Source: Evansella clarkii
GTDB lineage: Bacteria > Bacillota > Bacilli > Bacillales > Salisediminibacteriaceae
Assembly (NCBI RefSeq): GCF_002019695.1
Contig: NZ_KV917376.1
Location: forward strand, 4,412,974-4,476,973
Length of the DNA: 64,000 nt
Direction of reading: 5' to 3'
Shown: positions 19,841 through 51,374 of the stretch, in pieces
Position numbering within the stretch: the stretch's first letter is position 1
Layout: each line of letters starts with the position of its first letter
Made by a program: the position numbers and the translations under genes
Notes under the pieces: model-generated
Told to the model about the DNA's origin: nothing
The model's database searches: none
The model's input: the letters and a program-made list of their open reading frames with translations, nothing else

Positions 19841-20749
19841 CTATAAAATAACAAAGAGTAAAACGGTAACCGATATTACACTTAATATCGTTGTAATCAA
19901 TGTGATACTTGAGACAAGCTGCACTCTCGTATTAAACTGCATTGCATATATTGCTGTTGTTACCGCTGCAGGCATGGAACTTGCTATGATCAGAACTTGC
20001 TGCATGAGAAGGGACATTGGGAGTATTTCAGTCAGCCCCCAGGCGATAAAAGGAGACAGAATGAGCCTGATGATGACACCATAGGATATATACCCCCACT
20101 CCAGGCGGTCAAGGCGGATCTCTGCCAGCTGCATGCCTAGCATTATCATAGTAACCGGGATAGCCGCATCAGCGATAAGATCAATAAAGTTGAATACTGG
20201 TTCTGGTACTGTGATGCCTGACCAGTTAACCACCCCAACTATGAAAACAGCATATGTCGCCGGCATCTTAAAAACTGTGGCAACGGCCGTCCTGACTCCT
20301 GTTCCGCCTTTAGCGGCGTAATATACTCCGGCAGTTGTCATGATAAACGATTGTACAACCATATAAATTACTGCATAGGCAAAACCCTCAGGTCCGAAAG
20401 CGAATAAGACAATAGGAACACCGTAATTACCTGCATTCATAAAAGCTGTTGATAAAATCAGCCCGCTTTCCGTATCAGAATCCAGGCCCCGGAACCGAGA
20501 GTATATTTTGTTTATCCCTATATAAATTAACAAATAAATAACTGCAAACACAACCAGGACTATATGGTCTGCTGACAGCTCTGAATTATACAGTGTTCTG
20601 AAAATAAGCGCGGGAACAAGGATATAGATAATTAATGATGATATAGGGAGTAACGAAACTTTTTTCCACTTCTGAAAAACATACCCTGTTAAAAAGATAA
20701 GCATGACAGGCAGAACTACCTGAAAAAACAACATCCGAAACACTTCCAT
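19841..20749 (-). CDS. AEC family transporter (auxin efflux carrier fold)
   Basis: A 302-residue membrane protein with ten hydrophobic helices. The inverted-repeat fold of the AEC/BART family is recognisable from LPVMLIFLTGYVFQK, FMNAGNYGVPIVLFAFG in the first half and ASSMPAAVTTAIYAMQF in the second. Bacterial members carry malate, malonate or other organic acids; the substrate here is unknown. The ribosome site before the first ATG is weak (TTGGA), so the start could be six residues further in. It begins a strand that continues into the two thioredoxin-fold genes. Confidence 0.82.
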   Translation of the reverse strand: MEVFRMLFFQVVLPVMLIFLTGYVFQKWKKVSLLPISSLIIYILVPALIFRTLYNSELSADHIVLVVFAVIYLLIYIGINKIYSRFRGLDSDTESGLILSTAFMNAGNYGVPIVLFAFGPEGFAYAVIYMVVQSFIMTTAGVYYAAKGGTGVRTAVATVFKMPATYAVFIVGVVNWSGITVPEPVFNFIDLIADAAIPVTMIMLGMQLAEIRLDRLEWGYISYGVIIRLILSPFIAWGLTEILPMSLLMQQVLIIASSMPAAVTTAIYAMQFNTRVQLVSSITLITTILSVISVTVLLFVIL

Positions 20750-20816
20750 TCCAATTAAAGGGATTAAATGTCAGCTGTACCGGCACCTTTCACCTTTATA
20801 TTTTCGTTTTATGTAC

Positions 20817-21146
20817 ATGAATTAATTTCATAATTAAAGATTTAAATCTTTAATACGAACATTATCTTAAAAGGTTACTTTGTTGTTCGATTTACGCTTC
20901 AGAAGCTGGCAGAGAAAGAGAAAGCCGCCGTCTTACACTGCAATCGAAAAGAAACGTTCGTCTTGTTTTATCCCGATGTAACCGTCCGTAAAACTCCCGC
21001 CTCAAAACAGGAGTGGAAGCCAAGATGTTTAGGCGGGAGATAACGGACGCTAACATCCCGATTGGTTCAACTAACAATCAGTGGGGGATGAATCCCCCAA
21101 CTGATGGAAGGTTCACTTTATACAAAGTCTATATATGAAATTCATT
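20817..21146. repeat. MITE-like terminal-inverted-repeat element, interrupted copy
   Basis: The left end ATGAATTAATTTCATAATT and the right end TATATATGAAATTCATT are partial inverted repeats of one another. Matching ends and internal segments (CGATTTACGCTTCAG; GCCGTCTTACACTGCAATCG) occur at 34599-34847. This copy lacks the middle of that one and is split by the 150-bp element at 20972-21121. No coding capacity is visible. Confidence 0.75.
20972..21121 (+). mobile_element. 150-bp two-hairpin PATE-like element, copy A
   Basis: It starts CCCGATGTAACCGTCCGT right after TTTAT and ends GGTTCACTTTAT. A long interrupted stem pairs GATGT/ACATC (20975-20979/21053-21057), CGTCCGT/ACGGACG (20983-20989/21043-21049) and CTCCCGCC/GGCGGGAG (20994-21001/21032-21039). 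A second hairpin ATCAGT..ACTGAT spans 21077-21105 near the right end. The 34.8-kb MITE copy shows the uninterrupted site. Subterminal hairpins, TTTAT specificity and the lack of transposase fit a non-autonomous IS200/IS605 element; the right part resembles a TnpB omega-RNA scaffold (inference). Confidence 0.7.
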
Positions 21147-21169
21147 CAATTTCCTAAACAATAATAAAA

Positions 21170-21185
21170 CCTGGCGAAAGCCAGG
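21170..21185 (-). terminator. Terminator of pncA
   Basis: CCTGGC-GAAA-GCCAGG. On the minus strand it is followed by TTTTATTATT. Confidence 0.85.
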
Positions 21186-21202
21186 CATAAGTTAAAACTA
21201 TT

Positions 21203-21775
21203 TTACTTAACTTCCATTCCTTTTTCTAATACTTTCGCTCCTAAAGAGCCGCTAAAATGAGTCAGAGCCCATTCATGGCCAGATGGGTTAAAGCTGTCTA
21301 CAGCATCCTTATGAACTGTTACAGAAAACCCGAGATTATAAGCATCGACAGCAGTATGAAGGACACATATATCCGTACATACCCCCGCAAGATGAATCTC
21401 AGTAATTCCCCGTTCTCTCAGCTTTAACTCCAGGGTGGTTCCTGCAAATGCACTGTATCTCGTTTTATCCATCCACTCTACATGTCCTGTGCCGCTATAA
21501 TAGAGCTGGTTATAATATTCTCCGAGCAGACCGTATAATTTTCGTCCCTTCGTTCCTCTGATGTTATGAGGTGGAAACAATTTTGACTCCGGATGGTAAG
21601 GGTCATTCTCCTCATGTACATCTACAGCGAATACCACATACTCATCATTTTCTGCAAATTCTTTCGTGAGTTCTGTAATCCTGCCTTCTATAGCCTGTCC
21701 TCTTTCACCGCAGGTAAGCTTTCCATCATCAGCTACAAAATCGTACGTATAATCAATAACTATAAGTGCTTTCAT
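21203..21775 (-). CDS. pncA: Nicotinamidase / isochorismatase-family hydrolase
   Basis: This 190-residue cytoplasmic hydrolase converts nicotinamide to nicotinate for NAD salvage. The catalytic set is visible: Asp8 in VIDYTYDF, Lys in WMDKTRYSAF, and Cys in GVCTDICVLHTA. Metal-site residues lie in FAVDVHEENDPYHPES (DxHxxxDxxHPES). That motif is typical of nicotinamidase rather than isochorismatase. The ATG at 21775 follows a GAGGGGGG ribosome site. The gene stands alone between the MITE and ytzC. Confidence 0.88.
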   Translation of the reverse strand: MKALIVIDYTYDFVADDGKLTCGERGQAIEGRITELTKEFAENDEYVVFAVDVHEENDPYHPESKLFPPHNIRGTKGRKLYGLLGEYYNQLYYSGTGHVEWMDKTRYSAFAGTTLELKLRERGITEIHLAGVCTDICVLHTAVDAYNLGFSVTVHKDAVDSFNPSGHEWALTHFSGSLGAKVLEKGMEVK

Positions 21776-51227: not shown

Positions 51228-51374
51228 CCCGATGTAACCGTCCGTAGTACTCCCGCTTCAAAGCACGAGGTGAAGCGAAGATGTTCAGGCGGGAGAAACG
51301 GACGCTAACATCCCGATTAGTTCAGTTAACAATCAGTTGGGGATGCCCCCCCACTGATTGAAGGGTCACTTTAT
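51228..51374 (+). mobile_element. 147-bp two-hairpin PATE-like element, copy B
   Basis: It starts CCCGATGTAACCGTCCGT after TTTAT (51223-51227) and ends GGGTCACTTTAT. The same stems as copy A are kept: CGTCCGT/ACGGACG, CTCCCGC/GCGGGAG and GATGT/ACATC, with a right hairpin ATCAGT..ACTGAT at 51332-51358. Differences from copy A in the right hairpin (T bulge and four G:C pairs instead of an A bulge and five) leave the fold intact. The final TTTAT carries the stop codon of ypjB. Confidence 0.7.

Follow-up and report, generated by a model that had tools for sequence, protein, structure and literature searches.

The window, a stretch of 64,000 nucleotides from Evansella clarkii (genome G000), carries a non-coding element of 150 bp which lies inside a MITE-like repeat, is directly preceded by GTCTTGTTTTAT and terminates with the letters CACTTTAT. 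The element, its parts and a second, diverged copy in the same window are distributed as follows, G005 being a congener of G000 and g6 a further genus of the same family.

20808-21158, no strand assigned: host MITE-like repeat carrying the element, with imperfect inverted ends; a paralogue lies at about 34.59-34.85 kb
20967-20971, plus strand: TTTAT target, situated in the left flank and not part of the element; TTTAT in 35 of the 45 best-scoring copies of G000 and G005 and in 18 of 18 of genus g6
20972-21121, plus strand: element, 150 bp, non-coding, with left end CCCGATGTAACC and right end GGTTCACTTTAT
20975-21057, plus strand: hairpin 1, predicted from folds and from compensatory changes across genera, with the stacked stems GATGT/ACATC, CGTCCGT/ACGGACG and CTCCCGCCT/AGGCGGGAG and internal loops
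20988-20993, plus strand: GTAAAA, just 5' of the inner stem, which 56 of 66 copies have in their first 26 nt
21077-21105, plus strand: hairpin 2, predicted from folds and compensatory changes, with ATCAGT/ACTGAT and GGGGGA/TCCCCC and a one-base bulge
21117-21121, plus strand: TTTAT with which the element itself ends at the right; TTTAT in 40 of 45 copies, including all eight with ATTAT, TTAAT or GTTAT at the left
51228-51374, plus strand: second, diverged copy of 147 bp, 87% identical, which also follows TTTAT and ends in CACTTTAT

An initial annotation, made from the sequence alone, had described a 150-bp element with two hairpins that entered after TTTAT and itself ends in TTTAT, and this description is confirmed to the base. 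It had also stated, correctly, that the alignment with the MITE copy at 34.8 kb runs across the junction without a gap; the empty site that it recognized there does exist but is paralogous, and orthologous empty sites were found separately in relatives. The predicted fold is far more stable than those of shuffled sequences (z of -5.3 for RNA and -6.3 for DNA, no shuffle among 200 reaching this stability in either case). Among 20 chosen copies from four subfamilies and three genera, 19 of the 43 predicted pairs show a compensatory change, i.e., both sides are altered and the pair is kept in at least one copy, and several predicted helix pairs are disrupted in as many as 6 of the 20. The GTAAAA motif, situated on the 5' side of an internal loop, is kept in 56 of 66 copies while the adjacent helices change. 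It could pair with TTTTAY and might be a candidate target guide, a role modelled on the guide scheme presented in PMC6006769. By eye, no terminal inverted repeat is visible when the left end CCCGATGTAACC is compared with the reversed right end ATAAAGTGAACC, and an Rfam search of 20500-21500 returned no family at gathering score and two matches below threshold only.

The element is abundant in a few genomes of the family. When no more than 3 mismatches are allowed, the 22-mer of the left end has 87 matches in G000 and 88 in G005, and the same pattern reversed has none in either genome. BLASTN in G000 gave 119 candidates, 40 of which were scored, the 39 besides the query copy being 90-93% identical. 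Across nine Evansella genomes, BLASTN detects the element in two, and no left-end match occurs in the other seven congeners. A covariance model built from 26 chosen copies is positive in 5 of 35 genomes of the family (G000, G005 and the three g6 genomes G023, G029, and G030), each with at least 87 matches, and finds no match in the other 30. A plasmid of Pseudalkalibacillus carries relatives with the same layout, and two plasmids of Peribacillus asahii carry right ends; phage records contain no match to the element, and viral contigs none to one right-end pattern. A Bacillaceae-type right end is also present (L083, 2501-2580) on a plasmid labelled Klebsiella grimontii, which could reflect transfer or else a problem of labelling or assembly.

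Several arrangements of individual copies merit description. Tandem insertions occur at L210 and L212, one copy beginning right after the terminal TTTAT of another. Short derivatives at L258, L271, L274, and L277 have lost the core or one hairpin and retain a TTTAT-like left flank and the TTTAT end. Three copies from two species (L001, L010, and L038) occupy the identical position in three different MITE copies, where they adjoin ACAAAG[TC]CTATATATG.

Target sites were compared in the 45 best-scoring copies, 30 from G000 and 15 from G005. TTTAT is present at the left in 35 and at the right in 40 of them, 31 having it on both sides and 14 showing other combinations, and in genus g6 it stands on both sides in all 18 best-scoring copies. 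The expectation of the initial annotation that a genome search would reveal many copies, always after TTTAT, therefore holds for their number (87 left ends in G000) and for most of their targets, but not for all (35 of 45). Departures from TTTAT are more frequent at the left (10 of 45) than at the right (5 of 45), and those at the left recur as TTAAT, ATTAT, and GTTAT. In all eight copies with one of these three pentamers at the left, the right end is TTTAT, and not one of the 45 copies has an identical non-TTTAT pentamer on both sides. Four of eight listed non-canonical sites were searched with joined flanks, and an empty orthologue was encountered for each of the four. At L048, the target reads GTTAT in the occupied allele of G005 and also in the empty allele of G000, and the right end of the element is still TTTAT. 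The other three empty sites read TTTAG, TTCAT, and TCTAT, unlike the occupied target, and because of this drift they are less decisive than L048. The alternative mentioned in the initial annotation, a 145-bp element with a 5-bp TTTAT duplication, is disfavoured, since an odd target never recurs at the right among the 45 copies and one odd target has been found empty in a relative. Target duplication is excluded cleanly at one site, L048, and elsewhere by the statistics of odd targets.

The comparison of occupied and empty sites among relatives, which the initial annotation had proposed, was also fruitful in genus g6, where six of the eleven sites tested yielded nine aligned occupied/empty pairs. 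In eight of these pairs there is no gap at the junction, and the ninth has a 5-base difference four bases off. TTTAT is kept in five of the nine empty alleles, the other four reading TATAT, TTTAC, TTTAG, and CTTAT. Among the remaining g6 sites, L202 is empty in both relatives if judged by score alone, L207 and L209 each have a copy in a relative, and L201 has no counterpart among the matches listed. Flank identities are 177/180, 171/179, and 148/173 between G023 and G030, and 161/175, 160/177, 159/176 and lower with G029; from these flanks, G023 and G030 look nearest each other of the three g6 genomes. G030 alone has a copy at L196 and at L204, both sites being empty in G023 and G029; the empty alleles of L204 have TTTAC and TTTAG, which favours an insertion there over a loss. 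At L203, G023 and G029 carry copies that have in common a base lacked by the other subfamily-B copies compared, and G030 has a cleanly empty site with its TTTAT intact. This fits a precise loss in G030, an event that could also arise by slippage between the TTTAT edges, without an enzyme.

The orientation of the copies follows replication. From the GC skew of 20 sampled stretches, G000 switches near 1.3 and 3.4 Mb, and the skew of G005 is irregular. In G000, 64 of 87 copies run with the leading strand (by segment 8 of 13 in 0-1.31 Mb, 32 of 39, and 24 of 35), the bias being weak in one arm and some insertions being common to G000 and G005. In G005, this is the case for 60 of the 84 copies listed, or for 59 under an alternative origin estimate. 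The TTTAT background, determined for G000 only in 18 of the 20 stretches, with the two at skew switches omitted, is nearly balanced between strands (622:605, and 140:127 outside ORFs of at least 100 codons), and relative to TTTAT outside long ORFs the orientation bias in G000 has a p of 4e-5. It follows from the leading-strand bias of the copies that the strand carrying their TTTAT is the lagging-strand template, the same template that IS608 and ISDra2 use (PMC6006769). The orientation bias is partly confounded with gene direction: among 45 copies examined for gene context, those between tandem genes comprise 15 sense and 11 antisense, and 14 of the 19 between convergent or divergent genes follow the leading strand.

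A search for an autonomous copy in G000 began from both ends of the element. The 87 left ends head 83 full-length, gene-free copies and 4 fragments; 70 of them coincide with listed full-length matches of the model, and the other 17, which were fetched, comprise 13 full-length copies and the 4 fragments. The right-end motif has 89 matches, and nine stretches at unpaired right ends turned out to be 5 near-full-length copies and 4 right halves, in addition to decayed sequence beside P0001, a resident RAYT. Neither tnpA nor tnpB is present in any inspected G000 copy; in three of the eight fragments, for which ORFs were listed, there is no transposase, and the remaining fragments were read by eye. 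Copies carrying tnpA or tnpB between the same ends, as envisaged by the initial annotation, are thus not among the 87, and no IS with the element's ends was found.

In a screen of 152 loci around Y1-like matches, some of them overlapping and the set not exhaustive for other genera, an element match occurs only beside two IS200 copies of G029 and beside P0001. The G029 IS200 was discarded as a partner, its ends being unrelated by eye to those of the element. In the positive genomes G023 and G030, there are no PF01797 (Y1) matches at all; these genomes are assembled in 1 and 2 contigs and are 99% complete, and element copies differ between the two. Each of G000 and G005 possesses four Y1 genes, which their mutual similarity marks as RAYT-like, and the four G000 proteins have as their nearest NCBIfam model that of the REP-associated transposase, with scores below its cut-off. 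The mobilising enzyme has either been lost, or resides on an unsampled replicon, or falls outside PF01797.

The surroundings of the RAYT genes have repeats of their own. Upstream of the RAYT gene in both Evansella species there are decayed, partly repeated element-like fragments (L034, 1950-2345, and L053, 1285-1420, the latter weak), and downstream of the P0001-type RAYT there are tandem palindromic arrays of the GGCACC type (L034, 430-1240, and L053, 2100-2760). Other RAYT loci, L055 and L056, have different arrays.

Probably, the element is non-autonomous and transposes as single-stranded DNA in the manner of IS200/IS605, moved in trans by a putative HUH-type enzyme. Such an enzyme would recognize the hairpins and would cut 3' of TTTAT in the left flank as well as 3' of the TTTAT that ends the element, and the strand would be inserted 3' of TTTAT on the lagging-strand template, the target not being duplicated. 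The single-stranded intermediate and the type of enzyme are, like the presumed guide role of GTAAAA, deduced from the behaviour of the copies. Odd targets that are unduplicated and leave the right TTTAT in place, clean empty sites, an orientation that follows replication, and covarying hairpins bear out that part of the initial annotation which saw here a mobile, gene-free element with IS200/IS605-like insertion. The element's classification among the PATEs of a known IS is not established, because no inspected copy contains tnpA or tnpB, no IS with the same ends was found, and two positive genomes are devoid of a Y1 match. A literature search, in which long match lists were viewed in part and outside of which most subscription journals lay, found no description of the element. 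In this high-copy Bacillaceae family several signs of single-strand transposition coincide, but no enzyme turns up in genomes that ought to encode it. A search for the mobilising gene is feasible, since there are pairs of species that differ in their copies and whose genomes are nearly complete.

A wider version of this idea, conceivable if not probable, is that TTTAT-targeting single-strand elements form a Bacillaceae-wide family, perhaps with bcr1 among them, whose enzyme belongs to none of the known Y1 families; it is suggested by copies that appear to have moved in a lineage whose two sister genomes lack a Y1 match. It seems unlikely that the element integrates as a double-stranded circle by means of a tyrosine or serine recombinase with TTTAT as the crossover region. 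One edge could then hold the TTTAT of the circle and the other that of the target, and the precise loss fits as well, but non-TTTAT pentamers are commoner at the left than at the right (10 versus 5 of 45) with recurrent variants at the left, and neither covarying hairpins nor an orientation bias would be expected. Very unlikely is a 145-bp MITE that a DDE transposase mobilises, duplicating 5 bp (TTTAT) of the target. In the 31 of 45 copies with TTTAT on both sides such a duplication would look identical; however, no terminal inverted repeat is seen by eye, the odd left pentamers ATTAT, TTAAT, and GTTAT are paired with TTTAT at the right in eight of eight cases, the odd target of L048 exists unoccupied, and the orientation is linked to replication.

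That the element is REPIN-like and moved by a resident RAYT such as P0001 we regard as highly improbable. P0001 adjoins decayed element matches in G000 (nhmmer E of 7e-5), the G005 orthologue, at 64%, shows a weaker match (E of 0.09) and, by eye, a ATAAAGTGAA end, and the nearest relatives of P0001 are found in the two positive Evansella genomes. However, RAYT relatives are also encoded in all seven element-free Evansella genomes, and P0001 has no match in the positive G023, G029, and G030, the first and last of which lack any Y1 match. Furthermore, 80 further RAYT loci gave no match to the element model and one 10-bit right-end match, and P0001 has, by eye, its own palindromic array downstream. 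P0001 as mobiliser was dropped as the main explanation once G023 and G030 proved to lack a Y1 match. Scarcely credible is a structured regulatory RNA or the guide RNA of a solo TnpB that was spread by selection, for which strong folds, covariation and an insertion 3' of TTTAT reminiscent of TnpB target-adjacent motifs may be counted, but against which stand the lack of an Rfam family at gathering score in 20500-21500 and the polymorphic sites with clean empty alleles. A TnpB guide RNA was also rejected by direct comparison: the right ends of the two TnpB genes of G000 look different by eye from that of the element, blastn giving an 18-nt match at one only.

Returning to single-strand transposition in the IS200/IS605 manner, IS608 and ISDra2 are among the closest known systems, which are described as inserting 3' of a target of 4-5 nt without duplicating it, as having hairpins near their ends and as using the lagging-strand template (PMC6006769, PMC7290912). 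In contrast to them, the element is gene-free, and at its left it forms a long stacked hairpin where theirs measures 20-25 nt. With REP/REPIN sequences and their RAYTs (PMC2817692) the element shares a dispersed, palindromic nature and a presumed movement in trans, which for those sequences is ascribed to a Y1 enzyme. It differs from them by its length of 150 bp versus 20-40 bp and by the two positive genomes without a Y1 match, and the Evansella rows of the alignment, inspected by eye, show no GT(A/G)G head 5' of the hairpins. The PATEs of Haloquadratum are reported to have near-terminal palindromes that match those of IS605-type transposons, and strain-specific insertions exist where the IS200-type transposases of one strain are all broken (PMC3119063). 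Like the PATEs of that report, the element possesses near-terminal palindromes, has neither terminal inverted repeats nor target duplication, and is too short to code; unlike for the PATEs, no IS with matching ends was found. Finally, a similar TTTAT riddle is posed by bcr1, a repeat of the Bacillus cereus group whose description the reference list in PMC6542083 dates to 2004. The mobility of bcr repeats is tied there to TTTAT motifs, and bcr1 is located on some plasmids (PMC6542083); bcr1-3 are elsewhere characterized as structurally and functionally MITE-like (PMC3446304). No B. cereus-group plasmid was matched by blastn of the element at E up to 1, and the likeness is one of description: both are high-copy repeats of Bacillaceae linked to TTTAT, and by this analogy bcr1 may be of the same kind as the element.
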